A stretch of 64,000 nucleotides of DNA from Sphingobacteriaceae bacterium (GCA_029266635.1 JAQSWM010000002.1:62001-126000); one strand, 5' to 3'. Shown: positions 2,169 through 54,992, numbered from the stretch's first letter. Program-made: numbers and translations. Notes: a model not told the origin generated them from the letters alone.

Positions 2169-2717
2169 ATGAATATTCAACAGGCGACATTTGGCGGTGG
2201 CTGTTTCTGGTGCACAGAAGCGGTGTTCCAAACCTTGAACGGCGTGCAAAAGGTTGTTTCAGGTTACATGGGCGGGGAAACCCAAAATCCCACTTACATG
2301 GAAATCTGCAATGGAGACACCGGTCATGCGGAGGTTATCCGGATAGATTTCGATGCTGACGTGATTTCTTTTGAGGAATTGCTGCTTGTGTTCTTCACAA
2401 CCCACAATCCAACTACGCTTAACCGTCAGGGCAACGACATGGGCACGCAGTACCGATCTGTGATTTTCTACCATACAGAAGAGCAAAGGAACGAAGCGGA
2501 GGCTATGGTGCGTAAGCTGGAGGCGGAGCGGGTGTTCGACAAAAAAATCGTGACGGAGATTTCTCCTGCTTCAGAGTTTTACCCTGCGGAGGATTATCAT
2601 CAAAACTACTTCGTTCAGAACACGGGCAAGCCTTACTGCGCTTTTGTAATCCAGCCGAAAATGAACAAGCTTTTAGCAGACTTTAGGGAAAAAATAAAGC
2701 CCGAACTACTTCCGTAG
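2169..2717 (+). CDS. msrA: Peptide-methionine (S)-S-oxide reductase MsrA
   Basis: A 182-residue protein, the usual length for MsrA. The active-site motif GGGCFWCTE is at residues 9-17, with catalytic Cys12. Other family signatures are GYMGGETQNPTYMEIC, GHAEVIRIDFD, FFTTHNPTTLNRQGNDMGTQYRS and AEDYHQNYF. A C-terminal PYC may hold a resolving cysteine. The enzyme reduces methionine-S-sulfoxide in proteins and repairs oxidative damage. There is no signal peptide, so it is cytoplasmic. It appears monocistronic, with 120 bases of non-coding DNA before it and a terminator hairpin that overlaps its stop codon. Confidence 0.96.
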   Translation: MNIQQATFGGGCFWCTEAVFQTLNGVQKVVSGYMGGETQNPTYMEICNGDTGHAEVIRIDFDADVISFEELLLVFFTTHNPTTLNRQGNDMGTQYRSVIFYHTEEQRNEAEAMVRKLEAERVFDKKIVTEISPASEFYPAEDYHQNYFVQNTGKPYCAFVIQPKMNKLLADFREKIKPELLP

Positions 2718-2725
2718 TCGGGCTT
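2697..2725. terminator. Bidirectional terminator between msrA and the T9SS-type operon
   Basis: AAGCCCGAACTAC (2697-2709) pairs with GTAGTCGGGCTT (2714-2725) with one bulged base, and it includes the msrA stop. On the minus strand the hairpin is followed by TATTTTTTCCC, and on the plus strand by T-rich sequence. The minus-strand use, ending the operon whose last stop is at 2743, is the better supported. Confidence 0.75.
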
Positions 2726-2742
2726 AACATTTGTTGTAATTT

Positions 2743-4743
2743 TTATTTTTTAGCTGATGCAAGTGTCCTGGCGCTTGCCATCGACAGAACCGGCTCTACT
2801 TTCACGATCTTAAATTCAGTGCGGCGGTTCATTTGGTGCTCTTGCTTAGAGCATTTTACGCCGTCTTTGCAGCGGTTGAGCAATTCACTTTCCCCAAGGC
2901 CAACAGCCTCCAGCCTCTGGGAAGCCACGCCTTTATTTTTCAAATAGTTGATGGCTGATTCTGCCCTCTTTTGTGATAAATACTGATTGTAAACAGCTGG
3001 TCCGCGGGAGTCTGTGTGCGATCTGAGCTGGATATTTACGTTTGGCATTGAGTTCATGAAGTTTACAACTTTGGTGAGCTCAGGTATGGCATCTTTGCGG
3101 ATATCCCATTTATCAAAGTTGTAGTAGATGTTATTCAACCTGACCAGGTAAGCATCATTTGAACGTTCCAACTCGAAGTTGATAGTGAAGATGGTCGACT
3201 CTTTCAGGCCCTTGGTTGATATCTGCCCTTCCTGTTGCAGGTAATACTTGCTTTTATCGCCGGTAACTACATAGTCCATTTCCGGCTCAAGTTCAAAGTG
3301 GAAGGTTCCGCGGCTATCAGACATAGCAGATGTTTCTACACCAGTGGTCTTATTGGTCAGGATGATTTTGACGCTTTCAATAGGCAAGCCTGTTCCTTTT
3401 TCAAGTACCTGGCCATCCACTGCAAAAATTGGCTGTTGAATTGTCTTTGGCGCAACTTCCGGTATGATCCGGAAACGATAAATATCATCCAACCCTTTGC
3501 CTCCCTCACGGTTTGAGGATAAAAAGCCATTTGTAGAATCAGCATAAGTAATCCCGAAATCGTCTTTGGCGCTGTTAAGTGGAGATTTCAGGTTTTCTGC
3601 GACCGTGAAAATGTCGAATGAACCGTCCGCCATGAAAATGTCGAGCCCGCCAATCCCAATATTCCCTTTCGTCGAGTAAAAGAATTTTCCATCTTTCCGC
3701 ACATATGGAAAAACATCATCCTCTTCAGTATTGATGTTTGGGCCACAATTCTTAGGCGTATCCCAATCTCCCGAGGGGTTTTTGCGGCTGGCGTAAATGT
3801 CCATTCCGCCGAGGCCGCCGGGCATATCTGAAGCAAAATAAAGTATATTTCCATCAGGCGATAGCGCTGGGTGCTGTACAGAATAGCTGTTTCCATTGCC
3901 TAATAACCGAACGGGAATACTCCAGCCATCTTTCTGTTTTACCGACCGGAAAATTCCTTTTTTTACGATGTTGATGTCTTCCCGCTTACGGCTCGCTGGG
4001 AGATCAATTCGCGTAAAATAAATAGTATCACCGCTGGCGGTAAACACACCAGGCCCATTATGATACAAAGTGTTTATAGGCTTTGGCATAGCCGATATTT
4101 TTTGTGCTTTGCCTTCGCGATCTGTTAAATAGAGCTTCAGGTATGGGTTTCCGGTCCAGCCGTAAACAACGTCTTTTCTTTTAGCATTTGGGTCACTGGT
4201 AAACCAACGGTCAGAAACAAACGAAAGATTCTGCCCCACTAACACCGGGCAGAAATCTGAATATTCTGAGTTAAGGTTCTGCATGTTCTCCATCCTGACG
4301 CTTTTATCAGGATTTTCTACCCAGATTCGGGCAGCGTCTGTGGCATTCGCCAGTTTTGTTGCGAGAGCTGCTTTAGACGGTACCCGTTCTCCGTAAAGCT
4401 GGTAAGCCTCTTTAGCAGCTTCAAACTTGCTGTTCTGCTTTAGAGCATCAGCATAGTATTTGTAGTTAACCGGATCAAAGCCCTTAAATGTAAGAACGCG
4501 GGCATAAGCCTTTTCAGAATTTTTGGTGTCGTTAATGAACCGATAACAATTGGCAATTTTTTGAGCAACCTCTAACGATGGCTTTTTTGCCATTATTTTC
4601 TCGTAAAGCTCAAGGGCGTATTTGTAATCGTATTTCTCGTAGTAGCGGTTAGCCTGTTCTACGTCGTCAGAGAAGATATTTTGTGGGAAAAAGTAAAGGA
4701 ACGAGCAAAGAGATAAAGCTAGCGCTAGTTTTCTGTAATTCAT
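2743..4743 (-). CDS. OmpA family protein with TPR, PD40 propeller and carboxypeptidase-like domain (PorE-like)
   Basis: A 666-residue exported protein. The N-terminal hydrophobic segment is a signal sequence, followed by TPR-like helices (about 28-140). PD40/WD40-like propeller repeats come next (about 160-425; PALSPDGNILYFASDMPGGLG, FYSTKGNIGIGGLDIF). A carboxypeptidase regulatory-like Ig domain follows (about 438-525; VDGQVLEKGTGLPIESVKI). The C-terminal OmpA peptidoglycan-binding domain (about 535-655) has YYNFDKWDIR, LRSHTDSRGP and NRRTEFKIV. This is the domain order of PorE of the type IX secretion system, which links the apparatus to peptidoglycan. It is the last gene of a four-gene operon, 10 bases after the PorP/SprF gene. 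It may be a dedicated paralogue rather than the core PorE. Confidence 0.88.
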   Translation of the reverse strand: MNYRKLALALSLCSFLYFFPQNIFSDDVEQANRYYEKYDYKYALELYEKIMAKKPSLEVAQKIANCYRFINDTKNSEKAYARVLTFKGFDPVNYKYYADALKQNSKFEAAKEAYQLYGERVPSKAALATKLANATDAARIWVENPDKSVRMENMQNLNSEYSDFCPVLVGQNLSFVSDRWFTSDPNAKRKDVVYGWTGNPYLKLYLTDREGKAQKISAMPKPINTLYHNGPGVFTASGDTIYFTRIDLPASRKREDINIVKKGIFRSVKQKDGWSIPVRLLGNGNSYSVQHPALSPDGNILYFASDMPGGLGGMDIYASRKNPSGDWDTPKNCGPNINTEEDDVFPYVRKDGKFFYSTKGNIGIGGLDIFMADGSFDIFTVAENLKSPLNSAKDDFGITYADSTNGFLSSNREGGKGLDDIYRFRIIPEVAPKTIQQPIFAVDGQVLEKGTGLPIESVKIILTNKTTGVETSAMSDSRGTFHFELEPEMDYVVTGDKSKYYLQQEGQISTKGLKESTIFTINFELERSNDAYLVRLNNIYYNFDKWDIRKDAIPELTKVVNFMNSMPNVNIQLRSHTDSRGPAVYNQYLSQKRAESAINYLKNKGVASQRLEAVGLGESELLNRCKDGVKCSKQEHQMNRRTEFKIVKVEPVLSMASARTLASAKK

Positions 4744-4753
4744 TTAGGCAACA

Positions 4754-5728
4754 TTAAAAGTAACGTGGCGTGAGCAGCGCAGTACTTTTTCTGTTTGCAT
4801 TCAAAATAAAACCAAGTGATATTTCGTGTGTCCCGTTTGAATAATCGCCCAGTGCTGATAATGCATAATCGTATGCATAACCCACCCGAATATTCCTTGC
4901 AAAAAACAACTCCACTGCTCCCACCAACGAATTTTGGTTAAAAGCAGTAGTATTCAAACCGGGTTTTTTCCACAAGTTAACATTTGTGCGGTAAGAGGCA
5001 CCCAGCCAGACTGCTTCCTTAATCAGAAAGAAGAAGTTAAGATCCATGTTAGTAGGGCTTTTGGTGTCTTCTTTGATCAGGAAAGAGGGTTTGAATTTGA
5101 TTGAAGGATTTATGTCTAATAGTGCTCCTGCACTTAAGAAATAGTGCCTTCCTTGTTTGTAAATAGCTCCCTGGCCTGAATTCCTGTAATCAATTGCGTT
5201 GGCCAGCAGGTTGGTTATGGATGCTCCGGCAAAGAACTTTTCACTGCTGTAGAAAACACCCAATTTTGCATCGGGAGCGAAGTATGTTGATTTACCCGCA
5301 AAGTTTGGGTCCGAAATATCATCAATTACCGCATCATTAGCATTGAGTGTATATTGGGAAACCCCGGCGGCGAGGCCAAGGGCGAGCCTTGAATCGTCAT
5401 TCCCGACCGGCAAGCGGTATGAATAATTTACAAAGGCCGATGATTGATGTTGCAAGCCGATCTTATCGTTGATCACGGACAGCCCTAAACCAACCCTGTT
5501 ATCGAAGAAAGCTCCATCTACTATCAATGACTGCGTTTTAGGCGAGCCATCCAGCCCCGTCCACTGATCGCGATTAAGCATACTCACATTCAGCGTTTCC
5601 TTATAGCCGGCGTAAGCCGGATTGATCACCAGCGAATTAAACACATACTGGCTATACTGAGCCTCTTGCTGTGCGTGGCAAATCAGGCTACAGAATAAAG
5701 CTGTGAAGAGAAGATAGAACTTTTTCAT
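4754..5728 (-). CDS. PorP/SprF family type IX secretion membrane protein
   Basis: A 324-residue outer-membrane beta-barrel protein with a signal peptide (about 1-19, ending CHAQ). It carries the family N-terminus QEAQYSQYVFNSLVINPAYAGYK, repeated strands (GLGLSVINDKIGLQHQSS, GVFYSSEKFFAGASITNLL) and an end with RNIRVGYAYDYALSAL, THEISLGF. PorP/SprF proteins assist secretion and surface attachment of type B T9SS cargo and often lie next to their own cargo gene. Here the type B cargo gene lies directly upstream with a 1-base gap, which supports a cargo-partner pair. Confidence 0.92.
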   Translation of the reverse strand: MKKFYLLFTALFCSLICHAQQEAQYSQYVFNSLVINPAYAGYKETLNVSMLNRDQWTGLDGSPKTQSLIVDGAFFDNRVGLGLSVINDKIGLQHQSSAFVNYSYRLPVGNDDSRLALGLAAGVSQYTLNANDAVIDDISDPNFAGKSTYFAPDAKLGVFYSSEKFFAGASITNLLANAIDYRNSGQGAIYKQGRHYFLSAGALLDINPSIKFKPSFLIKEDTKSPTNMDLNFFFLIKEAVWLGASYRTNVNLWKKPGLNTTAFNQNSLVGAVELFFARNIRVGYAYDYALSALGDYSNGTHEISLGFILNANRKSTALLTPRYF

Positions 5729-5729
5729 A

Positions 5730-6941
5730 TCAGTTCTTTTTTGCCATGCTTATAAAACCTTTGTAAACCTTTTGGTCGCCATTGATCTCTACCTTGAGCA
5801 CATAGAAATAGGTTCCTGCCTGTAAGTTTGCTCCATCCCAGGCATTGGCGGAGTTGTAGCTTTTTGCTTTATAAACCTCATCGCCCCAACGATTAAAAAT
5901 CAACAGCTCGTTGTTAGGATACAGGTCCAGATTCTTCACAATCCAGGTATCATTTTTCCCATCTCCATCAGGCGAAAACGCGTTGAACAGTGTTAATGGG
6001 CTCATGTCTGAAGAGGTGGAAAACGAGAATGGCATATCTTTGAACCCGTTCAAAGAAGTGAATAGAAGGCTTCGGTTCAGGCCATCTCCATATGACCCGT
6101 CGTTAGAAGTTGACGGTGCCGCTTTTTCCCACACACCAGGCGAAATCCATTTGGTTATCTGCCGGTAATCCCCATCGCCTGTGTTTTGAAGGAAGTTGAC
6201 ATTCGTGGCGCCCACACCTGAGTCAAAGCTCAGTTCATAAAAATATTTGTCAAAGATCTTATCGATATCCGGGCGTTTGGAACTGCTGCTATAGCCTGCC
6301 AGTGACGGGTCTTTATAGAAAAACGACCCTGAATAAACTCCCTCACTGCTGGCCTGAGGCTGCATTTCTACGGGACGGTAAATGGCTGAGCCCGATATAG
6401 AAGAGCCAAAAGGAAAAAGGTACGTTCCCGTTGAAGATGTCTTCCTGTAAAGCTTGCCGCCTTTATCAGTGCTCACAAATCCGCTGGTGCGGGATATTGC
6501 ATTATTATCAGGACTCAGCACATTCAAATTATGTTGCAGAAGCTTAAGCTCTTTATCGTTCAATTTCAGAGAACCTGAAACATCAACATCCGCTAACATA
6601 AACTTGAAATCAGAGCCGGATAGCTCAAGGTTCGGAAAAGTGGTTTTTGAGGCGCCACCAATTTTTTGTTGCCCTCCTGATAACGTTACCAGCCCTTTTG
6701 ACTGGCTATCAAACACAAGAGGTGATAAAGCTGAAGGGACAGATGGATTGTTCAGCCAGTTTCCTTTTACTTCCAACTTTCCATTGTTCAGGATGGTGCC
6801 AGCATGATGGACGTAGCTATTGTCCACGAAAAGAAGCCCGTTTGCAGAAATTGTGATCGTTTGACCCGTATTTACAACCTGCGCAAGTAGCATGCTGCAG
6901 GGAAGCAGGCACAAACAAGTGGCGGTAAATAGCTTTTTCAT
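5730..6941 (-). CDS. T9SS cargo with type B (gliding-motility-associated) C-terminal domain
   Basis: A 403-residue protein with a signal peptide (about 1-20, ending LLAQ). The N-terminal half is rich in beta strands and Gly/Ser/Asn (GTILNNGKLEVKGNWLNN), as in surface beta-helix or adhesin proteins. The last 90 residues are a type B sorting domain: FNAFSPDGDGKNDTWIV, NNELLIFNRWGDEVYKAKSY, WDGANLQAGTYFYVLKV and KVYKGFISM. This domain directs export by the type IX secretion system. It lies between the collagen-like gene (1-base gap) and the PorP/SprF gene (1-base gap). Its ligand or function cannot be inferred. Confidence 0.9.
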   Translation of the reverse strand: MKKLFTATCLCLLPCSMLLAQVVNTGQTITISANGLLFVDNSYVHHAGTILNNGKLEVKGNWLNNPSVPSALSPLVFDSQSKGLVTLSGGQQKIGGASKTTFPNLELSGSDFKFMLADVDVSGSLKLNDKELKLLQHNLNVLSPDNNAISRTSGFVSTDKGGKLYRKTSSTGTYLFPFGSSISGSAIYRPVEMQPQASSEGVYSGSFFYKDPSLAGYSSSSKRPDIDKIFDKYFYELSFDSGVGATNVNFLQNTGDGDYRQITKWISPGVWEKAAPSTSNDGSYGDGLNRSLLFTSLNGFKDMPFSFSTSSDMSPLTLFNAFSPDGDGKNDTWIVKNLDLYPNNELLIFNRWGDEVYKAKSYNSANAWDGANLQAGTYFYVLKVEINGDQKVYKGFISMAKKN

Positions 6942-6942
6942 G

Positions 6943-8853
6943 TTAATCTACTATGGTGATGTGGTATGTCATGGCGGCAGGATCCTGAGCGGCGCTGCTG
7001 GCATTGAAAAACTTCACTTCTACTGTGTTCGATGCTGAAACTCTTGCATACGAGATGATAACTCCGTCGGGAAGTGCGGCATCCGGCGAAATAGAAACTG
7101 TTGAACCGGATGCGGCATCAGGTACTGTGAATGTCTGCACCAAAGCTGTTCCCGCCGCTATGTTGGCAAGATCGACAGTTCCTGAAGATGCTTTAACTAC
7201 TTTATTTATGACGGTGCCGTTTTGTCCAAGAATTATTGTGCCGTTTACGTGAAGCGATGCCTGCGGATCATTTTGGTTTATACCGATGTTGCCGTTTGAT
7301 TTTATCCGCATCCGTTCATCAGAATTGCTTCCAAACACAACATCCTTCGCGTCTAACGTTCCAATAAATGAGCCGCTCACCCCGGAAAATGCTGGCGTAG
7401 TTCCCGTATTTCCGGAGATTTTCCAGGCATCGTTGCTGCTTGGGCCTTTTATGTTCCCAACCTGAGCCCAGTTTGATGTACCGCGTTTGAAAACATCACC
7501 GTTTATTACGTTCAGATAATAATCATTCAGCACACCAGAGCCTGACGAAGGCGTGCCGCTACCGCTAAACCATACAGAGCCTTGTGCTCCTGTTGGGCCT
7601 TGCGGACCGGTTGTGCCGGCAGGCCCTACGGCCCCGGTTGCGCCCGGCTCACCTTTATCGCCCTTAGGGCCAGCAGCGCCTGTAGCTCCAGTTGCCCCTT
7701 GAGGGCCTGTGGCTCCGGGATCGCCTTTATCACCTTTGTCGCCTTTCGGACCCGCAAGACCTTGTGGCCCAGCGGCGCCGGTGTCTCCTTTATCGCCTGT
7801 AAGCCCCTGTGGACCAGCAGGACCGACTGGTCCTTGCACGCCTTGCGGTCCGGCTGAACCCGTATCTCCTTTATCACCCTTATCGCCTTTAGGACCGGCG
7901 GGGCCAGTTAATCCTTGTATTCCTTGCGGTCCTGCTAAACCAATGTCACCTTTATCGCCCTTATCACCCTTTGGTCCGGCGGGGCCAGTTAATCCTTGTA
8001 TTCCTTGCGGTCCGGCTATGCCAATGTCACCTTTGTCGCCTTTATCACCCTTTGGTCCGGCGGGGCCAGTTGCTCCCGGTAGTCCTTGCGGACCAGTTAA
8101 ACCTACATCTCCCTTGTCGCCCTTTGGCCCTGCAACTCCCGGTATCCCTTGCGGACCAGTTAAGCCTACGTCACCTTTATCACCTTTAGCTCCGTTGGCA
8201 CCTTGTGGTCCTGCGGGTCCGACATCGCCCTTATCCCCTTTTGGCCCCGCAACGCCCGGTATTCCTTGCGGTCCGGTCAGTCCAATTTTTCCCTGAACTC
8301 CCTGCGGGCCAGCTGGTCCCGCCGGGCCTTGCGGGCCGACAATGCCGGTTGTGAGGTTTGCAATAGTTGTCCAGCTTCCTGAAGCTTGCTTCTGATAAAC
8401 ATCGCCCGTGCTGTTATTAAGATACAGGTCTCCCTCGTTTGCGCCTGTAGGTTCGGTTGCAGCAACCGGAGGTTTCAATGTTCCGTTAAACCACTGGGCT
8501 CCTTTATCGCCTTTAGGCCCTTGCAAGCCGCCGTCAACAGAAACCCACTTGTTTTCAGACCAGAAGTTGAATTTATTCTTATCAGTATTGAAGATCAAAA
8601 GCCCGTTTAAGGCGGCGTTTACAGTTCCTGTAGCAATAATAGCCTCGCGTTGTTGTTCGGTAATCCGGGGAATCAGCAAGCCTTTAGAGTCTGAAACAAT
8701 ATCAAGTATAGCCTTTGTATTGGGCGTCGCCGTGCCAATTCCCACAGATCCATTTTGTGCCTGTGCCATCGCCGGAAGGAACAAAATAGTGCATATAGTT
8801 AAGCGGAAGAGGAGAGCGAGCGATTTAGATTTAGTAGGTAAGTTTCTTTTCAT
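6943..8853 (-). CDS. Collagen-like (Gly-X-Y) repeat surface protein
   Basis: A 636-residue protein with a signal peptide (about 1-32, ending MAQAQ). Residues 35-105 carry a module frequent in Bacteroidota fibre-like proteins ([32 protein letters not shown]). A short Gly-X-Y patch is near 109-118, and an almost unbroken Gly-X-Y region runs from about 170 to 425, rich in [11 protein letters not shown] and GPQG, which should form a triple helix. The C-terminal 210 residues are globular and include a second fibre-like motif ([27 protein letters not shown] written here only in part: [19 protein letters not shown]). No clear T9SS sorting domain is seen. It is the first gene of the operon. The long plus-strand open frames opposite it are caused by its repetitive composition. 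Confidence 0.88.
7822..8064 (-). repeat. Three tandem 81-bp repeats inside the collagen-like gene
   Basis: Residues 264-290, 291-317 and 318-344 of the collagen-like protein are successive 27-residue units beginning [13 protein letters not shown]. The first two differ at one residue (GIA versus GLA) and the third is more diverged. At DNA level the first two copies are nearly identical, which points to recent unequal exchange or slippage in steps that keep both the frame and the triplet register. Confidence 0.85.
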
Positions 8854-8872
8854 AGGTTAAACTTTTTGCCTG

Positions 8873-8905
8873 CAAAAATTTACATCAGACTGCTTTATAC
8901 GACAA
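8873..8905 (-). promoter_or_regulatory. Possible promoter of the collagen/T9SS operon
   Basis: Reading the minus strand, TTG (8905-8903) is followed after 20 bases by TAAATTTTTG (8882-8873), 19 bases before the ATG. This resembles the Bacteroidota -33 TTTG / -7 TAnnTTTG promoter but has two extra bases inside the -7 box, so the call is tentative. Confidence 0.3.
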
Positions 8906-8997
8906 GTTGTTAACATAGTTTCAATCTTCTTCATTATTTGAAATAGGGGTATGCCTTTAAGGGGAAATAATTAATTTAGCGGCACTAAAAGCAAAAT

Positions 8998-44034: not shown

Positions 44035-44682
44035 ATGGATAGAAGAGAAGCCATCAGGAATGTAGCCATACTAATGGGCGGCGCCATTTCTGCTACCACA
44101 ATGGGCGTTTTGTTTGATAGCTGCAATCAGCCGTCGGAGAAAACAGCCGGCAACACCAAAGATTTGTTCAGCGACAACCACAAAGCGCTGATAACAGAGA
44201 TATCCGACATCATTATTCCCACAACCGATTCACCGGGAGCTAAGGCTGCCGGCGTTGGCCCGTTTGTGGCTATGATGATGAACGAGTGCTATCCTGAAAA
44301 GGCACAGAAAGCATTTGTTGATGGGCTTGACGATGTAGAAGACCGTTCAAAATCGAAGTTCAGTAAATCTTTCATGGAGCTTTCTGTAGCACAACGCAAC
44401 GAGGTTATCAAATCCATCGCAGACGAAACCGTTCAGAAAAGGAAAGAAGATAAAGAGAAGGAGAAAAAGGATGCTGATAAGCAGGCTACAACAGTAAAAA
44501 GCAAGGGCACAAATGATCCGGTGAAGAATGTTTATTTCTTCCAATTGATGCGTGACCTTACGCTGCTTGGCTATTTCTCTTCAGAAGTAGGAACCACCAA
44601 AGCGCTTGCCTATGTGCAGGTGCCCGGCCGTTATGAAGGATGCACTGATTTAAAACCTGGTCAAAAAGCCTGGGCTATCTAA
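44035..44682 (+). CDS. Gluconate 2-dehydrogenase subunit 3 family protein
   Basis: A 215-residue protein. The amino terminus MDRREAIRNVAILMGG resembles a Tat signal, with a possible lipid-anchor Cys30 (LFDSC). The mature part matches the small gamma subunit of GMC dehydrogenases: ITEISDIIIPTTDSPGAKAAGV, MMNECYP, then FFQLMRDLTLLGYFSSEVGTTKALAY. In characterised complexes this subunit is needed for folding and Tat export of the flavoprotein. The GMC gene begins 17 bases downstream. A Lys/Glu-rich central stretch is unusual but in frame. Confidence 0.9.
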   Translation: MDRREAIRNVAILMGGAISATTMGVLFDSCNQPSEKTAGNTKDLFSDNHKALITEISDIIIPTTDSPGAKAAGVGPFVAMMMNECYPEKAQKAFVDGLDDVEDRSKSKFSKSFMELSVAQRNEVIKSIADETVQKRKEDKEKEKKDADKQATTVKSKGTNDPVKNVYFFQLMRDLTLLGYFSSEVGTTKALAYVQVPGRYEGCTDLKPGQKAWAI

Positions 44683-44699
44683 TTTTAATATTCGAAAAG

Positions 44700-46400
44700 A
44701 TGAACATAAATAATAAAGCTGTTGCAGAGAATACCTACGATGCAATTGTAATTGGTTCGGGAATCAGCGGCGGTTGGGCAGCCAAAGAACTTACTGAAAA
44801 AGGGCTCAAAGTGCTTTTGCTTGAACGCGGAAGAAACATTGAGCACGTAAAAGATTACGACACCGCGATGAAAAATCCGTGGGAATTTAAACATCGCGGC
44901 AGACTTACTCAGGAGCAGGTGAAAAGCCATCCGGTGCAGATACGTGATTATCCGTACACAGAATTTAATGAAAGCTATTGGGTAAACGACTTAGAATGCC
45001 CGTACACAGAAGTTAAGCGCTTTGATTGGTACAGAGGCTTCCACGTGGGTGGGAAATCATTGATGTGGGGCAGACAGAGCTACCGGATGGGTGATCTGAA
45101 CTTCGAGGAAAATAAAAAAGACGGTATCGCCATCGATTGGCCAATCCGTTACAAAGACATCTCACCCTGGTACGATCATGTAGAGAAGTTCATCGGTGTA
45201 AGCGGCGAAACTGCTGGCTTGCCAGTTCTTCCAGACGGCCACTATTTACCTCCCATGCAGATGAACTGCGTTGAGAAACACGTAAGAAAGCGCATTGAGG
45301 ATAAATGGAAAGGCGAGCGGATGATGATGATGGGCCGTGTGGCCAACCTCACCCAGCCACACAATGGCCGCGGCTCATGCCAGTACCGGAACATGTGCAA
45401 CAGAGGCTGTCCGTTTGGCGCTTATTTCAGCACGCAATCGTCGACAATGCCGGCTGCTATGAAAACAGGCAACCTGACCCTGCGCCCATTCTCAATTGTA
45501 AACACGCTGCTGTATGATAAAAATACAAAGCGTGCTACCGGTGTGCGGATTATTGATGCAGAAACCATGGAGAACATTGAGTACTTCGCAAAAATCATTT
45601 TCGTGAATGGCTCGACACTTGGCACAACGCAAATACTGCTTAACTCAACATCTGATGAGTTCCCTAACGGATTTGGAAACAGTAGCGGACAATTAGGCCA
45701 TAACCTGATCGACCATCACTTCAGGACCGGCGCTCAGGGCACCGCAGAGGGCTTTGACGATAAATACTACTATGGCCGCAGAGCTAACGGTATTTACGTG
45801 CCACGCTTCCAGAACGTTGGAAAAGACAAACGCGACTACTTACGCGGATTTGGTTACCAGGGTGGCGCAAGCCGTACAGGGTGGCAGCGTGACGTGGCGG
45901 AAATGGCTTTTGGTGCCGAGTTTAAAGACGAGGTAACACAACCAGGGCCATGGAAGATGGGATTGGGTGGTTTCGGCGAAACACTTCCTTATTTCGAAAA
46001 CAAGGTTACACTTGACAAGAGCAAAAAGGACAAGTGGGGCCAGCCGGTGCTTGCTATCGACTGCGAGTTCAAGGATAACGAGCGCAAAATGCGTGTCGAC
46101 ATGCAGAACGAAGCTGCTGAAATGCTGGAGGCTGCCGGAATTAAAGACGTGAAAACCTACGATAACGGCTGTTTTCCTGGCATGGCAATCCACGAGATGG
46201 GAACTGCCCGCATGGGAAATGATCCTAAAACATCGGTATTGAACAAATGGAACCAAATGCATGATGTGCCGAACGTGTATATCACAGATGGATCGTGCAT
46301 GACTTCCAGCGGATGCCAAAATCCATCCTTGACGTACATGGCGTTAACCGCAAGAGCCTGCGACCATGCTGTTCAGGAATTAAAGAAAATGAATGTTTAA
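44700..46400 (+). CDS. GMC family flavoprotein dehydrogenase, putative glycoside 3-dehydrogenase
   Basis: A 566-residue protein without its own signal peptide. FAD-binding GSGISGG is at 19-25, and catalytic His498 is in IHEMGTARMG and Asn541 in CQNPSLTYMALTA. A cysteine cluster C-x5-C-x3-C (Cys227, Cys233, Cys237) resembles the iron-sulfur ligands proposed for FAD-dependent glucose and glycoside 3-dehydrogenases. It would be exported with the small subunit encoded upstream and pass electrons to the cytochrome c encoded at 57249. Oxidation of a sugar hydroxyl is well supported, and the C3 position is inferred from the DUF1080 and isomerase-fold neighbours. Confidence 0.88.
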   Translation: MNINNKAVAENTYDAIVIGSGISGGWAAKELTEKGLKVLLLERGRNIEHVKDYDTAMKNPWEFKHRGRLTQEQVKSHPVQIRDYPYTEFNESYWVNDLECPYTEVKRFDWYRGFHVGGKSLMWGRQSYRMGDLNFEENKKDGIAIDWPIRYKDISPWYDHVEKFIGVSGETAGLPVLPDGHYLPPMQMNCVEKHVRKRIEDKWKGERMMMMGRVANLTQPHNGRGSCQYRNMCNRGCPFGAYFSTQSSTMPAAMKTGNLTLRPFSIVNTLLYDKNTKRATGVRIIDAETMENIEYFAKIIFVNGSTLGTTQILLNSTSDEFPNGFGNSSGQLGHNLIDHHFRTGAQGTAEGFDDKYYYGRRANGIYVPRFQNVGKDKRDYLRGFGYQGGASRTGWQRDVAEMAFGAEFKDEVTQPGPWKMGLGGFGETLPYFENKVTLDKSKKDKWGQPVLAIDCEFKDNERKMRVDMQNEAAEMLEAAGIKDVKTYDNGCFPGMAIHEMGTARMGNDPKTSVLNKWNQMHDVPNVYITDGSCMTSSGCQNPSLTYMALTARACDHAVQELKKMNV

Positions 46401-46411
46401 GTATAATTTGA

Positions 46412-47431
46412 ATGCAAAATAAAAGTAGTTTGTTGCCTTTGTTGCTAATTAGTGCTGTATTGTTTGGCTGCAAACAGAAAGCCGGCAGTACGACCGGTAC
46501 TGAAGCGAAGGTTGATACAGTTCAGTCAAAAATGGTATGGATTCCGGCAGGCTCATTTCAAATGGGCTCAGATGATCCGGCTTTTACCGATGCTCTGCCT
46601 ATCCACAAAATTTCTGTTGATGGTTTTTGGATGGACGAGCACGAGGTTACCAACGCCGAATACGCTAAGTTCGTAAATGCCACCGGTTACCAGACTGTTG
46701 CGGAACAGCCGCTCAATCCCGCCGATTTCCCGGATGTTCCAAAAGAAAATCTCGTTTCAGGATCGGGCGTTTTTACCCCAACCACTCAGCCGGTTAACTT
46801 AGATAACCCGATGCAGTGGTGGCGCTATGTTCCCGGTGCAAGCTGGAAACACCCCTTTGGACCTGAGACCTCGGTAACTGATAAGCCAAACGATCCTGTT
46901 GTACACATCAGCTATACAGATGCAATGGCTTACGCGAAATGGGCAGGCAAAAGGCTTCCCACAGAAGCAGAATGGGAATTTGCCGCTCAAGGCGGAAAAG
47001 GCAGGCGGAAATTTTACTGGGGAGATGAGCTAAAGCCGGGCGGAAAATGGATGGCCAATATCTATCAGGGCAGTTTTCCTGATGCAAATACCAGCGAAGA
47101 CGGTTTTAAAGGCATAGCACCTGTGAAAACCTTTCCGGCAAATGGATATGGCCTGTACGATATGGACGGCAACGTTTGGGAGTGGTGCAATGACTTCTAT
47201 CGACCGGATTACTATTCCAAAAGCCCGGAGAAGAATCCTCAAGGTCCAACCGATAGCTATGATCCCGATGAACCGGGCATAGTTAAACGCGTTCAACGTG
47301 GTGGCTCATTTTTGTGCAGCGATGAATATTGTATCCGCTACCGTCCGGGAAGCCGGGGCAAAGGCGAAGTGAATAGTGCATCTAATAACCTGGGTTTTCG
47401 TTGTGTGAAAGACGGGAATCCTCCTAAATAA
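46412..47431 (+). CDS. Formylglycine-generating enzyme (SUMF1 family), lipoprotein
   Basis: A 339-residue protein with a lipobox ending at Cys20 (VLFGC). The FGE-sulfatase fold is complete: MVWIPAGSFQMGSDD, VDGFWMDEHEVTNAEYAKFV, RLPTEAEWEFAAQGG, DGNVWEWC and SNNLGFRC. The active-site cysteines of true FGE are present as Cys302 and Cys307 in GGSFLCSDEYCIRYRPGSR. It should oxidise the sulfatase Cys to formylglycine using copper and oxygen. Three Cys-type sulfatases lie in the same region. Being a lipoprotein, it would act outside the inner membrane after sulfatase export. Confidence 0.93.
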   Translation: MQNKSSLLPLLLISAVLFGCKQKAGSTTGTEAKVDTVQSKMVWIPAGSFQMGSDDPAFTDALPIHKISVDGFWMDEHEVTNAEYAKFVNATGYQTVAEQPLNPADFPDVPKENLVSGSGVFTPTTQPVNLDNPMQWWRYVPGASWKHPFGPETSVTDKPNDPVVHISYTDAMAYAKWAGKRLPTEAEWEFAAQGGKGRRKFYWGDELKPGGKWMANIYQGSFPDANTSEDGFKGIAPVKTFPANGYGLYDMDGNVWEWCNDFYRPDYYSKSPEKNPQGPTDSYDPDEPGIVKRVQRGGSFLCSDEYCIRYRPGSRGKGEVNSASNNLGFRCVKDGNPPK

Positions 47432-47436
47432 AAGCG

Positions 47437-48870
47437 ATGTTAACTCCTGCGTTAAAAGCTTCAGCCTGCCTGCTGGCGATAAGCCTGCTCTCGTTTGTTG
47501 CAGACAAAAGAACGTTAGCCGATTGTTCGGTGACCATCAATGCTGCCAAAGAGGAAGGTGTTGTGAGCCCGAATATTATGGGTTTCAATATTGTTTATTG
47601 TTACGAAGGCGATGCTGCATGGCAAAGCGGCAAGGGAACTGCAGCCAAAGCTGTAGCTGCCCTGGGCGCACGGCAACTTCGCTATCCCGGAGGAACTGTG
47701 GTAACCAATTATCATTGGGAACACCCAACCGGGCAGGGCTGGAGTGACAGATGGTCGCCTACATTTGATGCCTCAAAAAACGCGAAGCCATCGGAGTTTA
47801 TGGATATTGACGAGTATCTCGGAGTCGTGAAGACTTTAAAGACTGAGCCGCTTGTGGGTATCAACATGGGTTCGGGCATGAAATACAACCGTGTTCAGGA
47901 TGGCGTTGCTGAAGCCGTGCGGTTGATGAAGCATTGCCTGAAAAATGGAGTGAAAGTGAAATACTACTATCTCGACAACGAGCCTTATCAGCCCGACGCG
48001 AACTTCACATACACAGCCGAGCAATATGCAGATGCCGTTAACACGTATGTGCCTGCTATGAAACAAGTTGATCCCAACATCAAGATCATCGTCAACACAC
48101 ATCCCAACGCGGAATTATACACCAACACATTGCTTGAAAGAGCCGGTAAGAATATAGACATTGTTGATGTTCACAATTACTGGAAGCACAAAAATGCCAC
48201 TTTCGAAAACTGGAAAGCAGAGGGTTTGATGAAGCATCGCGGCGTAATTCCTTACAACCAGGAAAGGAAAGTTTTTGAAAAGCTTTTCGCTGAGGCTGGA
48301 TATCCAAACATCAAATTAGCCATTCTTGAGTGGAACATCGGACCTTTCGGCGAAGGCCATACTCCGCCAACAGAGGCTCAGGCAGCGCTAATGGTATCAG
48401 AGCAATTTACCCAATACATTCAAAGCGGCCTGTTCATGGCTACTTTTTGGCCTCTCACCACCCAATCTGCATCGCCGAGCAACAACAGAGCTTTGCTGAA
48501 ATCTAAAGCAGATTACAAAACGAACAAAATTTACGACATGTTCAACCTGTACAAAGATGTATTGGGGCAACAACAAGTCGCCAGCACCGAGTCAGTCACA
48601 AACCTGATCAACCTTGCCGTGAAAAGCAACGATGGGAAAACTATGTGGGTTTACCTGATCAATAAACAACAGGACCAGGACCAGCTAAACGTAAACCTGA
48701 CCCTGGATGGTTTCGCTGCGAAAAGCGTATCTGGAACAGGTTTTGACAGCTTGAATGACTCTGCCGAACGCCTCGCAGTTCGTGGTGTAAAAGCTGACAT
48801 TATAGATGCTACTCATTATAAAGTAGCGATTCCGAAAAACTCATTCGTGAAACTAACATTCAAACAATAG
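47437..48870 (+). CDS. Clan GH-A glycoside hydrolase, arabinofuranosidase-like (copy 1)
   Basis: A 477-residue protein with a hydrophobic signal (about 1-22). The TIM-barrel part has LRYPGGTVVTNYHWE, then acid/base Glu182 in YYLDNEPYQPD and nucleophile Glu298 in LAILEWNIGP. A C-terminal beta-sandwich (about 385-477) follows. The motif pattern is closest to GH51/GH39-type enzymes, which include alpha-L-arabinofuranosidases. The exact family was not determined. It is followed 3 bases later by a paralogue of the same design. Confidence 0.82.
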   Translation: MLTPALKASACLLAISLLSFVADKRTLADCSVTINAAKEEGVVSPNIMGFNIVYCYEGDAAWQSGKGTAAKAVAALGARQLRYPGGTVVTNYHWEHPTGQGWSDRWSPTFDASKNAKPSEFMDIDEYLGVVKTLKTEPLVGINMGSGMKYNRVQDGVAEAVRLMKHCLKNGVKVKYYYLDNEPYQPDANFTYTAEQYADAVNTYVPAMKQVDPNIKIIVNTHPNAELYTNTLLERAGKNIDIVDVHNYWKHKNATFENWKAEGLMKHRGVIPYNQERKVFEKLFAEAGYPNIKLAILEWNIGPFGEGHTPPTEAQAALMVSEQFTQYIQSGLFMATFWPLTTQSASPSNNRALLKSKADYKTNKIYDMFNLYKDVLGQQQVASTESVTNLINLAVKSNDGKTMWVYLINKQQDQDQLNVNLTLDGFAAKSVSGTGFDSLNDSAERLAVRGVKADIIDATHYKVAIPKNSFVKLTFKQ

Positions 48871-48873
48871 CTG

Positions 48874-50298
48874 ATGAAAGCCCTGAGGTTTTTCAGTTGC
48901 TTGCTATTATTTGCTAATTTTTCATTTGTTGCAGATAATGGTAAGCAACCGTTATCCGACTGTACGGTAACAGTGAAGGCAAATGATGAAAAAGGCATTG
49001 TGAGCCCGAATATTATGGGCTTTAACATTGTTTATTGTTACGAAAGCGATGCAGGATGGGGCAGCGGAAAAGGCAAAGTTTCGGAATTGGTAAAAGCCCT
49101 CGGCACTAAACAGCTAAGGTATCCGGGAGGCACTGTTGTAACCAAATATCATTGGGAACATCCAACCGGGCAGGGCTGGAGCGATACCTGGTCGCCCGAC
49201 TTTAATCCTGCTAAAAATACTGATCCATCCGTCTTCATGGATATCGATGAATATCTGGGAGTGGTCGAAAAGCAAAAAATTGAGCCCTTAGTCGGGATCA
49301 ACATGGGTTCCGGGATGAAATACAACCGTGTTCAGGATGGTGTGGATGAAGCTGTGCGGCTGATGAAACATTGCCTCGCGAAAGGAGTAAAAGTGAAATA
49401 TTACTACCTGGACAATGAGCCGTACCAGCCCGACGCTAACTTCACCTATACTCCTGAGCAGTACGCTGAAGCGATAAATACTTATGTGCCGGCAATGAAG
49501 AAAGTTGATCCGGATATTAAAATTATTGCAAATACTCACCCGAATGCCGATCTGTACACCAAAGCATTATTGGCAAATGCCGGCGAAAATATCGACTACG
49601 TAGATGTGCATATGTACTGGAGGTACAAAAGCGCAACTTACGAGAACTGGAAGAAAGAAGGCTTGATGAAGCATCGGGGCGTCTCTCCGTACAACCAGCA
49701 GAATGCTATTTTCCAGAAGATATTTGATGCAGCCGGCTACCCTAACATCAAACTGGTAATCCTCGAGTGGAACATCGGGCCGCCGGGCGATAACAATATA
49801 GCCCCAACAGAAGCCGAAGGAGCTTTGATGGTTTCCGAACAATTCACCCAATTCATCCAAAGCGGTTTATTCATGTCAACCTTTTGGCCGCTCTCCTGGC
49901 CTAACCAGTCGTTCAGGGCTCTTTTGAATGTCAACGCCGAGTATAAGCCATTCAAGATGTATGATATGTTCGCCTTGTACAAAGATGTGCTGGGGCAACA
50001 GAAAGTCAAGTCTACAGGGACAATTGCCAACCTGGTAAACCTGGCCGTAAAGAGCAAAGACGAAAAAACCATGTGGGTTTATCTGATCAACAAACAGCAG
50101 GATAGGCCGGAATTGAAAGTTGACCTTGCTCTCGAAGGTTTAAACCCCAAAAGCGTGTCGTCTTCTGCCTTCAATGCAAGCGATAGTTCTGTAGGCGGCT
50201 TGGACGTACATAGCCTAAAGCTAGATCGGGTAGGTGCGAACCGCTACACGTTGCAGGTACCTAGAAACTCCTTCGTTAAACTCACTTTTAATATGTAG
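48874..50298 (+). CDS. Clan GH-A glycoside hydrolase, arabinofuranosidase-like (copy 2)
   Basis: A 474-residue tandem paralogue of the previous protein. Long identical stretches include SPNIMGFNIVYCYE, QLRYPGGTVV and VGINMGSGMKYNRVQDGV. Acid/base Glu182 and nucleophile Glu298 are at the same residue numbers as in copy 1. The two differ most in the C-terminal sandwich and in a short loop near residue 305 (FGEGHTPP versus PGDNNIAP), which could alter specificity. Both keep a signal peptide. The pair lies between the FGE and the third sulfatase. Confidence 0.82.
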   Translation: MKALRFFSCLLLFANFSFVADNGKQPLSDCTVTVKANDEKGIVSPNIMGFNIVYCYESDAGWGSGKGKVSELVKALGTKQLRYPGGTVVTKYHWEHPTGQGWSDTWSPDFNPAKNTDPSVFMDIDEYLGVVEKQKIEPLVGINMGSGMKYNRVQDGVDEAVRLMKHCLAKGVKVKYYYLDNEPYQPDANFTYTPEQYAEAINTYVPAMKKVDPDIKIIANTHPNADLYTKALLANAGENIDYVDVHMYWRYKSATYENWKKEGLMKHRGVSPYNQQNAIFQKIFDAAGYPNIKLVILEWNIGPPGDNNIAPTEAEGALMVSEQFTQFIQSGLFMSTFWPLSWPNQSFRALLNVNAEYKPFKMYDMFALYKDVLGQQKVKSTGTIANLVNLAVKSKDEKTMWVYLINKQQDRPELKVDLALEGLNPKSVSSSAFNASDSSVGGLDVHSLKLDRVGANRYTLQVPRNSFVKLTFNM

Positions 50299-50316
50299 CC
50301 CATAAAACAAATCGAC

Positions 50317-51747
50317 ATGTGCAGGAAATTCATCGTTCTTTTATCGCTTCTGAATATTGTAGGGTTCGCATCCATAGCACAGGTTCCATCCCCAAAAAAA
50401 TACAACGTTTTGTTCATAGCCGTTGATGATCTTAATACCGATTTAAGCAGCTACGGGCATCCTGATGTAAAAACACCAAATATTGAACGATTGGCAAAAC
50501 GCGGCATCCAGTTCAATCGGGCTTACACGCAGTTCCCTTTATGTAGCCCAAGCCGCTCTTCACTGATGACCGGCATGAATCCCGACATCACCAAAGTTTA
50601 TAACCTGATTACTCATTTCCGTGAGGCTCTGCCCGACGTGATAACCATTCCGCAGCTTTTCATGCAAAATGGCTACTATGCAGCCCGTGTGGGAAAAATT
50701 TATCACTACGGCGTTCCGGGCCAGATTGGGACAAGCGGGTTAGACGATCCGGCTTCGTGGAAAGAGGTAATTAATCCCAAAGGCAGGGATAAAACCGAGG
50801 AAGCAAAGGTGATCAACCTGATGCCGAAGCGCAGCCTCGGCTCATCGCTTTCTTATCTCATAGCCGACGGCACAGACGAAGAACAAACAGATGGGATGAT
50901 AGCAACGGAAGCCATCAAACTGTTGGACAAACATAAAAATGAGCCCTTCTTCCTTGGAGTTGGCTTCTTCCGGCCGCACACGCCATATGTTGCTCCGAAG
51001 AAATATTTTGACATGTATCCGCCCGAATTGATAAGCCTGGCCAAAGAGCCCGCTGACGATTTGGACGATATTCCCGAAGCAGCTTATTTCACTAAACCTC
51101 CAAACTGGGGCTTAAGCGACGACAAATTAAAAGCAGGTAAACGCGGCTATTATGCTGCCATTAGCTTTATGGATGCGCAGGTAGGCCGAGTGCTGGATGC
51201 CCTTGATCGGCTGAAGCTGAGCGACAACACTATTATCGTGTTGTGGAGCGATCATGGTTACAATCTTGGGCAGCACGGGCAATGGATGAAACAGAGTTTG
51301 TTCGAGAACTCAGCCCGTGTGCCGCTGATCATTTCCGTTCCGGGAGGTTTGAAAGGAAAGGTTTCTGATCGTACGGTCGGACTGATCGATATGTACCCAA
51401 CCCTTGCTGATTTGTGCAACTTGCCACTAAAGCAAAAAGTATCCGGCGTAAGCTTGAAACCACTTCTCAAAAATCCGGCAGCGGCTTGGGACAGGCCTGC
51501 GTTTAGCCAGGTAACGCGAGGAAAAACAATGGGCCGCAGCGTGCGCACAGAACGCTATCGGTACACTGAATGGGATGAAGGGCGTGCAGGAGTTGAGTTG
51601 TATGATGAGCAGAACGACAAAGGCGAGTTTGCCAATCTGGCTAAAAAGCCCGAGTACGCCAAAATAGTTAAAGGTATGTCGGCACAGTTGCGAAAAACCT
51701 ATGATGCAGCAGCTGTGCATATTAACGTAGATAATAAGCAAGAATAA
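50317..51747 (+). CDS. Sulfatase, iduronate-2-sulfatase-like
   Basis: A 476-residue protein with a signal peptide (about 1-21, ending SIAQ). The N-terminal VLFIAVDDLNTDLSSYGHPD and the signature PLCSPSRSSLMTG (Cys76, formylglycine precursor) match the iduronate-2-sulfatase subgroup of family S1. Also present are GKIYHYG, FFRPHTPYVAPKKYFD and LWSDHGYNLGQHGQW. Members of this subgroup often hydrolyse 2-O-sulfates on uronic or other sugars. The true substrate is unknown. It lies 2 bases before a sugar isomerase gene. Confidence 0.93.
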   Translation: MCRKFIVLLSLLNIVGFASIAQVPSPKKYNVLFIAVDDLNTDLSSYGHPDVKTPNIERLAKRGIQFNRAYTQFPLCSPSRSSLMTGMNPDITKVYNLITHFREALPDVITIPQLFMQNGYYAARVGKIYHYGVPGQIGTSGLDDPASWKEVINPKGRDKTEEAKVINLMPKRSLGSSLSYLIADGTDEEQTDGMIATEAIKLLDKHKNEPFFLGVGFFRPHTPYVAPKKYFDMYPPELISLAKEPADDLDDIPEAAYFTKPPNWGLSDDKLKAGKRGYYAAISFMDAQVGRVLDALDRLKLSDNTIIVLWSDHGYNLGQHGQWMKQSLFENSARVPLIISVPGGLKGKVSDRTVGLIDMYPTLADLCNLPLKQKVSGVSLKPLLKNPAAAWDRPAFSQVTRGKTMGRSVRTERYRYTEWDEGRAGVELYDEQNDKGEFANLAKKPEYAKIVKGMSAQLRKTYDAAAVHINVDNKQE

Positions 51748-51748
51748 T

Positions 51749-52711
51749 ATGTCAGAGAAATTAACCCGCAGAGAGTGGAATGCCTTAGCACTGGTCGGCT
51801 TGGGAGGTTTATTGGTGCCGTCTGTATTTGCCTCCTGCAAAACATCGTCTGGAGTAATCCCGACAAGATTGATAGGTACTGCGGCTGCAAAACAGGCAGC
51901 AGATTTAGGTGTGATGCTGGGCACTCAAACGTATAGCTTCAGAGACCGCTCACTTGATGATGCCATTAAGGCGATGGTACAGTTGGGCGTAAAAAGCTGC
52001 GAATTGTGGGATGGGCATGTAGAGCCGCGTAACCTGCAATGGGAAGCCGGGCAGTCTCCCATAACAGCAAAAACGAAAGCTGAGAATATCCGCAAATGGC
52101 GGGATACTCTTGATATGAGTACCATCAGAGCCATTAAAGACAAGTTAGATGCTGCTCAGATCAGTATCGTGGCTTATACATCGACGATCAAAGACAATAC
52201 ATCAGACAGCGACATTGACCTGATGTTCAGGATAGCGCAAAATTTGGGCGTCGACACGATAAATAGCTCGGCTACTGTGAACGTGATGAAGCGCATTGAT
52301 CCATACGCTCAGAAGTATAAGATGAGGGTTGCCATGCACAACCACTCACACGTAGAAAATCCGAATGAAATATCCTCGCCCGATAGCTTTTCCCGGGGGA
52401 TGGAGGGCTTGTCAGATTACATCAACATCAACCTTGATATCGGACACTTTACTGCAGCAAATTTTGACGCAGTAGATTTCCTGAAAAACCACCATCAGAA
52501 AGTGTTGAGCATCCACGTAAAAGATCGCAAGAAAAATCAGGGCCCAAATATGCCCTTAGGCGAAGGTGATACCCCGATTGTTGAAGTCTTAAGGCTTATC
52601 CGGGATAACAAGTGGCCAATTCCCGCCAATATTGAATACGAGTATAAAGGCGCAAATACTTTTGAGGAAGTAAAAAAATGTCTTGATTATTGTAAAAAGG
52701 CGTTAGCGTAA
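51749..52711 (+). CDS. Tat-type lipoprotein, sugar phosphate isomerase/epimerase fold (copy 1)
   Basis: A 320-residue xylose-isomerase-like TIM-barrel protein. The start MSEKLTRREWNALALVG is a Tat-like signal, with a lipid-anchor candidate Cys30 (FASC). Barrel motifs are LGTQTYSFRDRSLDDAIKAMVQLGVKSCELW, HNHSHVENPNE, NLDIGHFTAANFD and SIHVKDRKKNQGPNMPLGEGDT in part, giving Glu/Asp/His metal ligands. Export makes a cytoplasmic isomerase role unlikely. Related fold members cleave 3-keto-glycosides by beta-elimination. It has a tandem paralogue 3 bases downstream. Confidence 0.85.
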   Translation: MSEKLTRREWNALALVGLGGLLVPSVFASCKTSSGVIPTRLIGTAAAKQAADLGVMLGTQTYSFRDRSLDDAIKAMVQLGVKSCELWDGHVEPRNLQWEAGQSPITAKTKAENIRKWRDTLDMSTIRAIKDKLDAAQISIVAYTSTIKDNTSDSDIDLMFRIAQNLGVDTINSSATVNVMKRIDPYAQKYKMRVAMHNHSHVENPNEISSPDSFSRGMEGLSDYININLDIGHFTAANFDAVDFLKNHHQKVLSIHVKDRKKNQGPNMPLGEGDTPIVEVLRLIRDNKWPIPANIEYEYKGANTFEEVKKCLDYCKKALA

Positions 52712-52714
52712 ATC

Positions 52715-53680
52715 ATGTCACACAACATAACCCGGCGGGACTGGAATAAGCTGGCACTTATGAGCTTTGGAGGCTTATTGGTTCCCGCAGTATTTGATTC
52801 CTGTAGAACTGCTGCTGTTGCGGTCCTACCAGTTTTGAAGGGAACTCCAGCCGAAAAAGCTGCGGGTAATCTGGGAATAGTTTTGGGTGTTCAGACGTAC
52901 AGTTTCAGAGACCGGCCTTTGGATGAGGCAATTAAAGCCATGCAACAGCTCGGCATAAAAAGCTGCGAATTATGGGATGGGCATGTGGAACCGCGTGTTT
53001 ACTTCCCGCCCTTGGGGCAGCCTCAGCCTACTGCCAAAGAAAAAGCCGACAACCTGCGTAAGTGGCGGGATACGGTGGACATGAGCAGTATCACGGCGAT
53101 ACGAAAAAAGTTGGATGCGGCTGGGATTACGCCAGTTGCTTACACCACCTCTACGATTAAAGATAATAGCACAGATCACGATATTGAACTGATCTTCCGC
53201 ATTGCACAGGCTCTTGAAGTCCCTGCTGTTTACAGTTCATCAACTGTAAACGTGATGAAGCGGGTATATGGCTTTGCTAAGCACTACAACATCAAGGTAG
53301 CACTTCACAATCATTCGCACACAGAGAATCCGAACGAAATTTCATCTCCTTACAGCTTTGCCCGGGCAAGTGCTGGCATGTCGGACATGGTTTACATGAA
53401 CATGGACATTGGCCATTTCACTGCGGCCAACTTTGATGCTGTCAGTTTTTTAAAAGAGCATCACGACAGGATTTTAAGTATCCATTTAAAAGACCGTAAG
53501 AAAAATCAGGGGCCTAATATGCCTTTCGGCGAAGGCGACACACCTATCATCGAAGTGCTGCGGCTCATCCGCGATCAAAAGTGGCCCATTACCGCCGACA
53601 TCGAATATGAATACAAAGGCGGAGACAGCCTTGATGAAGTTAAGAAATGTCTTGATTACTGTAAAAAAGCTTTAGCGTAA
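52715..53680 (+). CDS. Tat-type lipoprotein, sugar phosphate isomerase/epimerase fold (copy 2)
   Basis: A 321-residue paralogue of the previous protein. It starts MSHNITRRDWNKLALMS with Tat-like arginines and a candidate lipid Cys30 (FDSC). The same barrel motifs are present: LGVQTYSFRDRPLDEAIKAM, HNHSHTENPNE, NMDIGHFTAANFD and DRKKNQGPNMPFGEGDTP. Both keep the metal ligands, so both are probably active. A sugar-lyase role in the 3-keto pathway is inferred from fold, export and neighbours. Confidence 0.85.
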   Translation: MSHNITRRDWNKLALMSFGGLLVPAVFDSCRTAAVAVLPVLKGTPAEKAAGNLGIVLGVQTYSFRDRPLDEAIKAMQQLGIKSCELWDGHVEPRVYFPPLGQPQPTAKEKADNLRKWRDTVDMSSITAIRKKLDAAGITPVAYTTSTIKDNSTDHDIELIFRIAQALEVPAVYSSSTVNVMKRVYGFAKHYNIKVALHNHSHTENPNEISSPYSFARASAGMSDMVYMNMDIGHFTAANFDAVSFLKEHHDRILSIHLKDRKKNQGPNMPFGEGDTPIIEVLRLIRDQKWPITADIEYEYKGGDSLDEVKKCLDYCKKALA

Positions 53681-53681
53681 T

Positions 53682-54983: not shown

Positions 54984-54992
54984 AATCTGAAT

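Follow-up and report, generated by a model that had tools for sequence, protein, structure and literature searches.

Type B cargos of the type IX secretion system (T9SS) require and bind their own PorP/SprF shuttle, and a porE-like gene beside such a cargo-PorP pair has been proposed to accompany non-mobile anchoring (PMC9143113, PMC12618676). In the closest described systems, PG1035-PorP-PorE of Porphyromonas gingivalis and Fjoh_3952-3951-3950 of Flavobacterium johnsoniae, the gene for a protein with a type B signal is immediately followed by a PorP/SprF gene and then by a PorE-like PD40/CRD/OmpA gene; Fjoh_3952, which is encoded beside a PorE homolog, is static (PMC9143113, PMC12618676). The gliding adhesin SprB is likewise a type B adhesin paired with a PorP/SprF barrel, SprF, and twin cysteines in the C-tail of SprF tie it to the gliding track (PMC12635249). 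We analyzed a 64,000-nucleotide stretch of DNA from a Sphingobacteriaceae bacterium (the window), in which an operon with the cargo-PorP-PorE-like order is headed by a further gene. Its four genes code for a collagen-like, phage-tail-fibre-like secreted protein (gene 1), a short type B cargo (gene 2), a PorP/SprF-family barrel (gene 3) and a PorE-like protein (gene 4). Unlike the PG1035 and Fjoh_3952 loci, it has a separate fibre gene before the cargo, a cargo that is short, and an OmpA protein that lacks a lipobox and scores below the PorE cut-off. Unlike SprB-SprF, the PorP C-tail is devoid of a twin cysteine, a PorE-like gene is present and the putative adhesive part is encoded by a separate gene instead of being part of one giant chain. 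We propose that this operon probably encodes a static surface-fibre machine, in which the head of a trimeric fibre would sit on a short cargo and PorP and the PorE-like protein would hold that cargo immobile at the cell surface.

The four genes keep their order far more often than chance would allow. Among 60 relatives surveyed, with the cargo counted at full length and at least 41% identity, all nine genomes with such a cargo (the window's own being one of them) had the same four genes in the same order beside the same transketolase neighbour. A scan of public genomes recovered this order in Hufsiella arboris, Desertivirga xinjiangensis, Pedobacter chitinilyticus, P. ureilyticus and Nubsella zeaxanthinifaciens. 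Across 201 Sphingobacteriaceae genomes the cargo is present in 29, at 30 places distributed over 8 of 25 genera, and is always an open frame of 393-424 residues; a profile of the C-terminal domain of gene 1 matches directly upstream of it at 29 of these places. The single exception (locus L135 of genome G080) has three other genes bearing the gene 1 head domain upstream of the cargo. An earlier note, made from the DNA of the window alone, had read the four genes as a dedicated surface fibre or adhesin module headed by a long collagen-like protein. The linkage, which the note would have given up had the order not recurred elsewhere, is upheld by this conservation, and the module remains the best reading of the locus; it is the emphasis on collagen that has to be given up, as the orthologs of gene 1 indicate.

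Gene 1 comprises a signal peptide, a head some 75 residues long and a shaft, and it ends in a C-terminal domain, here called the knob, of about 85-100 residues. The shaft of the window protein is unmistakably collagen-like (Pfam Collagen, 1e-40, 138 bits), with a run of 86 uninterrupted Gly-X-Y triplets at residues 170-427 as against a longest run of 7 triplets in 2000 shuffles of the protein, and may form a triple helix. In orthologs, the head and knob stay, but the Gly-X-Y triplets of the shaft number anywhere between 0 and 162: L034 instead has a non-collagen shaft with repeat units some 35 residues long, three versions of gene 1 are shaftless (L038, L138, L139), and in 10 of the 11 genomes of genus g18 the protein has only 242-272 residues, these short forms being collagen-free by direct check in three genomes. 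Hence, collagen is neither the conserved nor the defining part of gene 1, since many orthologous operons have little or none of it; what they retain is the head and the phage-fibre-like knob. The conserved head motif reads ...KGLLIPRIT...LLIFN...FNFW..KW or 'GSVGIGT..PN...' followed by NGLLIYN...FNFW..KW (in short, 'VGIGT...LIPR'). Neither a type A nor a type B T9SS signal was detected in gene 1 with TIGR04183, TIGR04131, PF13585 and PF18962 in the Pfam and NCBIfam searches.

The Gly-X-Y domain is common to gene 1 and the bacterial collagen-like adhesins Scl1/SclA and Lcl, unlike which gene 1 has no LPXTG anchor and has different head and tip domains; its NCBIfam matches to SclA, Lcl and SclB all fall under the curated cut-offs. 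As these and the PHROGs tail-fibre matches of the whole protein are mostly driven by the repeat, we set them aside and tested the knob alone. An AlphaFold2 model of the knob (mean pLDDT 87) matched a Klebsiella phage depolymerase (6tku) in a Foldseek search of the PDB with probability 1.00, TM-score 0.61 and E 0.06, the best E-value among the PDB matches, which also included R1 pyocin fibres and H-type lectins. Against viral predicted structures it recovered 25 phage models at E<=0.001. The knob additionally occurs in a prophage tail-fibre setting (L125) and is weakly matched in one phage record; PDB sequence searches with the cargo, PorP and the knob returned nothing useful. Thus, gene 1 shares with phage tail fibres, tailspikes and R-type pyocin fibres the head-shaft-tip plan, the fold of the C-terminal knob (6tku, 6cl5) and collagen or other shaft repeats. 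Unlike them, it has a host signal peptide, a Bacteroidota-type 'VGIGT' head and a fixed place in a chromosomal operon with T9SS genes, outside any phage structural module, its neighbors being the transketolase, msrA and T9SS genes. It is best described as a phage-tail-fibre-like, presumably trimeric, fibre with an optional collagen shaft.

Several observations on related genes and frames may be recorded here. Four genomes of genus g18 (L122, L123, L124, L126) encode, elsewhere in the genome, a long collagen protein that ends in the gene 1 knob and adjoins a small type A T9SS cargo; two of these proteins have more than 280 Gly-X-X units, and in three of these genomes the gene 1 of the four-gene operon itself is shortened. 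In Pedobacter sp. UBA4863, gene 1 is split into two frames of 500 and 173 residues (L051, 5344-7994), as the result either of a frameshift or of faulty assembly of the repeat. A long Pro/Ser-rich open frame on the plus strand of the window (7709-8296) was rejected as a mirror artefact of the Gly-X-Y codons opposite.

The remaining genes resemble the static type B loci. The earlier note had assigned gene 2 as a type B cargo and gene 3 as its probable PorP/SprF partner, and both family assignments are confirmed by Pfam and NCBIfam scores: the cargo matches PF13585 with 88 bits (cut-off 27) and TIGR04131 with 49 bits (cut-off 35), and the barrel, encoded directly 3' of the cargo after a 1-base gap, matches PF11751 with 255 bits (2e-75) and TIGR03519 with 267 bits, over its cut-off. 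The modeled cargo is all-beta (mean pLDDT 87), and its C-terminal part resembles the translocon-bound substrate chain 8glk_D (Foldseek, probability 1.00, E 0.1); relatives of its N-terminal domain of about 300 residues occur in 124 of 395 genomes of the class. The source genome encodes SprA and GldK, and gene 2 is predicted to be secreted by the T9SS with the aid of its PorP/SprF partner. The PorP ends in ...STALLTPRYF, and no cysteine lies within the last 22 residues of any ortholog examined, so that the SprF-type twin cysteine is missing. As to gene 4, which the note had called an OmpA/PD40/TPR anchor, OmpA and PD40 domains are recovered by Pfam together with CarboxypepD_reg, and the TPR part, lacking a TPR match in Pfam, is suggested by an alignment to the PorE profile over residues 25-620. 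We term gene 4 PorE-like because it has the PorE architecture but its score of 392 bits lies below the curated PorE cut-off of 600, the score for the CHU_0125 family being higher (440 bits, cut-off 620); it is hence not a curated PorE. No lipobox, which would mark an outer-membrane lipoprotein as in PorE, was found in gene 4.

Table 1. Coordinates of the operon and its parts in the 64,000-nucleotide window
Feature	Position	Strand	Description
Gene 1	6943..8853	-	636 residues; collagen-like/phage-tail-fibre-like secreted protein; signal peptide; no T9SS C-terminal signal, no lipobox
Gene 1, conserved N-terminal head	8530..8751	-	residues ~35-108; ~50% mean pairwise identity in 9 orthologs
Gene 1, Gly-X-Y shaft	7573..8346	-	86 triplets; variable in length or missing in orthologs
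Gene 1, C-terminal knob	6946..7245	-	~85-100 residues; phage tailspike/pyocin-fibre/H-type-lectin-like fold (AlphaFold2, Foldseek)
Gene 2	5730..6941	-	short type B T9SS cargo, 403 residues; all-beta N-terminal domain (residues ~21-310) and CHU_C signal
Gene 2, type B (CHU_C) sorting domain	5733..5993	-	residues 317-403; Pfam CHU_C 3.4e-25
Gene 3	4754..5728	-	PorP/SprF-family outer-membrane barrel, 324 residues; C-terminus TPRYF, C-tail without cysteine
Gene 4	2743..4743	-	PorE-like, 666 residues; TPR-like N-terminus, PD40, carboxypeptidase-regulatory and OmpA domains; no lipobox
Terminator-like hairpin followed by T-run	2697..2725	-	downstream of gene 4, convergent with msrA; read directly in the sequence
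Intergenic region toward divergent transketolase gene	8854..8997		presumed site of operon promoter

The four minus-strand open reading frames are spaced by 1, 1 and 10 bases, as the earlier note had it, and are likely to be co-transcribed. The divergent transketolase gene, starting at 8998, forms the upstream border, and the hairpin with its T-run at 2697-2725 the downstream one (Table 1). No match to a strict Bacteroidota promoter was found in the 8854-8997 sequence upstream of gene 1, and scans for sigma-70 promoter-like and terminator-like sequences gave no more matches than expected by chance. Elsewhere in the window (44035-56156), genes for GMC oxidoreductase, gluconate dehydrogenase subunit 3, formylglycine-type activator, sulfatase, xylose-isomerase-like and Gfo/Idh/MocA proteins form a cluster that probably serves the catabolism of sulfated sugars.

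The company of an upstream gene varies with the size of the cargo. Among cargo-PorP pairs with readable upstream DNA, from locus samples gathered by similarity to one query and with counts uncorrected for relatedness, an abutting upstream gene accompanies 30 of 36 cargos of up to 500 residues as opposed to 1 of 30 larger cargos; in four of the six short-cargo exceptions a head-bearing fibre is found downstream instead (L050, L129, L130, L131). Excluding orthologs of the window operon, the figures are 9 of 14 and 1 of 30, respectively (Fisher p = 2.5e-5). In a quick tree of the PorP proteins, in which the placing of several long branches is unsure, the close orthologs of the window PorP group together in a supported clade. 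The closely related Pedobacter PorPs of a second clade are accompanied upstream by genes of very different kinds: collagen fibres (L104, L075), a fibre whose end is tail-collar-like (L067) and CshA-type or related adhesins (L066, L084, L085, L096), with one further member (L115) having a single 2754-residue cargo. This pattern looks like an exchange of passengers on a constant anchor. The CshA-type or related passengers, each of about 500 residues, share a C-terminal 'ITNP.LPS' motif, one of them having a CshA_NR2 domain; in L084 and L096 a further gene of 1700-2000 residues precedes the passenger.

The association extends beyond the family. In a sample of about 40 loci with the cargo domain outside Sphingobacteriaceae, again counted without correction for relatedness, a fibre gene (defined by the head profile or at least 15 Gly-X-Y triplets) occupies position -1 relative to the cargo domain in 11 of 34 cases, compared to 2 of 278 distant or opposite-strand genes (Fisher p 3e-10). 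The association is frequent rather than universal, being seen in 10 of 20 short-cargo and 5 of 20 longer-cargo loci. The layouts include collagen fibres arrayed in threes (L164-L166), fibres that flank, on either side, a cargo whose ending reads as type A by eye (L151, L152) and fibres placed after the PorP gene (L148); some fibre loci have no OmpA gene. In L164, L165, L166, L151 and L152, two to four collagen-like fibre genes surround one T9SS cargo, and some of their tips are His-rich and phage-tail-collar-like. The source genome itself has four other PorP loci, with cargos of 827, 915, 906 and 430 residues and no fibre. In the locus of the last of these (L146, 6378-8618), the type B cargo and a divergent PorP/SprF-like gene are sandwiched between SusC/SusD-like and sulfatase-like genes, with neither a fibre nor a PorE-like gene. 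In another cargo operon of this genome (L143, ~5009-6703; G000:C7:199981-201630), the PorE-like gene has an in-frame TAG within the matched stretch, leaving a shortened frame of 564 residues.

As to mechanism, the short cargo would exit through the T9SS translocon and be collected by its own PorP/SprF shuttle, with the PorE-like protein tying the barrel to peptidoglycan and thereby rendering it immobile. From the published work on static type B cargo-PorP-PorE loci, genes 2-4 most likely form such a static, wall-tied anchor, and a PorP without the SprF twin cysteines next to a PorE-like gene also favors static anchoring. Gene 1 would supply a separately encoded, probably trimeric fibre of phage-tail-fibre build, with a conserved head, an evolvable and often collagenous shaft, and a C-terminal knob. 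Because fibres beside the same kind of cargo have unrelated ends and the head is their common feature, docking is most simply ascribed to the head, which would bind the beta-rich N-terminal domain of the short cargo, with the knob pointing outward for adhesion or glycan binding. T9SS substrates are thought to leave the translocon signal-first (PMC10994853); therefore, a partner bound to the N-terminal part of the cargo could conceivably follow it. Export and docking of the fibre, its trimerisation, static anchoring and adhesion are predicted steps, and where the shaft is collagen-like the cargo may be what displays it, as the earlier note had supposed. A more general scheme, which we advance only tentatively, is a class-wide two-component T9SS display, wherein short adaptor cargos of type B or type A, each with a conserved beta-rich domain for docking, carry separately encoded, signal-less, phage-tail-fibre-like trimeric fibres through or onto the outer membrane, with the fibre genes acting as interchangeable cassettes and arrays.

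Certain observations weigh against the fibre-on-cargo arrangement. Only 10 of the 20 short-cargo places in the class-wide sample have a fibre nearby, and the 430-residue type B cargo and PorP of the source genome likewise imply that a short cargo is not always accompanied by one. No fusion of fibre and cargo in one chain, which would have pointed to contact between them, was found among the large cargos listed; these share with the short ones only the C-terminal signal or the cargo N-domain. Moreover, gene 1 has no T9SS signal with which to cross the outer membrane. In an alternative that we deem less likely, the cargo plays no part in the export and anchoring of the fibre, which would rely on some other outer-membrane route or an unrecognised terminal signal, the four genes being simply co-regulated adhesins. 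The ordinary signal peptide of gene 1 and its lack of a T9SS signal would be in keeping with this, as would the preservation of the knob within orthologs, as could befit a C-terminal signal, and the presence of head-bearing fibres with no adjoining T9SS cargo (e.g. L132). However, the unrelated tips of fibres beside the same kind of cargo (knob, tail-collar-like, C1q-like) speak against a common C-terminal signal, the knob has the fold of phage fibre tips, and the class-wide placing of fibre genes beside this cargo domain is specific.

Having a signal peptide only and a gene adjoining that of the periplasmic PorE-like protein, gene 1 could also be periplasmic, the alternative that the earlier note itself had set against its reading; for instance, it and its PorE-like neighbor might jointly bridge the outer membrane and the cell wall. 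We consider this quite improbable, given that a phage-like tip of the receptor-binding type and fibre lengths of over 1000 residues better suit the surface and that the alternative passengers are of the adhesin type, as with the CshA_NR2 domain. Least credible of all is that a prophage tail-fibre gene, domesticated or drifting, came to lie upstream by chance or recombination: the occurrence of the knob in a prophage and in viral predicted structures, as well as the tail-fibre matches in PHROGs, are what such an origin would leave behind, but it is disfavoured by the retention of position and order at all but one of 30 places in eight genera, the absence of surrounding phage genes, and the intact frames with host signal peptides and a Bacteroidota-type head. 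The parts of the fibre may nevertheless be of phage origin.

A linkage of a collagen-like protein to the T9SS was not found described in the open-access literature searched. Static type B anchor operons are already known; what is new, as far as those papers go, is a modular fibre gene that is dedicated to such an operon, encoded separately and associated throughout the class with one cargo domain. To our knowledge, T9SS adhesins have been described as single chains with their own sorting signal. The recurrent fibre-cargo gene pair, then, suggests a split of adhesion and anchoring between a signal-less fibre and a short anchored adaptor, and such a split would explain how Bacteroidota can exchange surface fibres while leaving the anchor as it is. 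Many secreted proteins that are 'VGIGT'-headed or collagen-like and so far unannotated would thereby gain a suggested function. Further, the gene pair raises the testable question of whether the T9SS delivers a partner devoid of a C-terminal signal; if two-component display is true, this system exports or assembles hetero-oligomers, and not only proteins with C-terminal signals.

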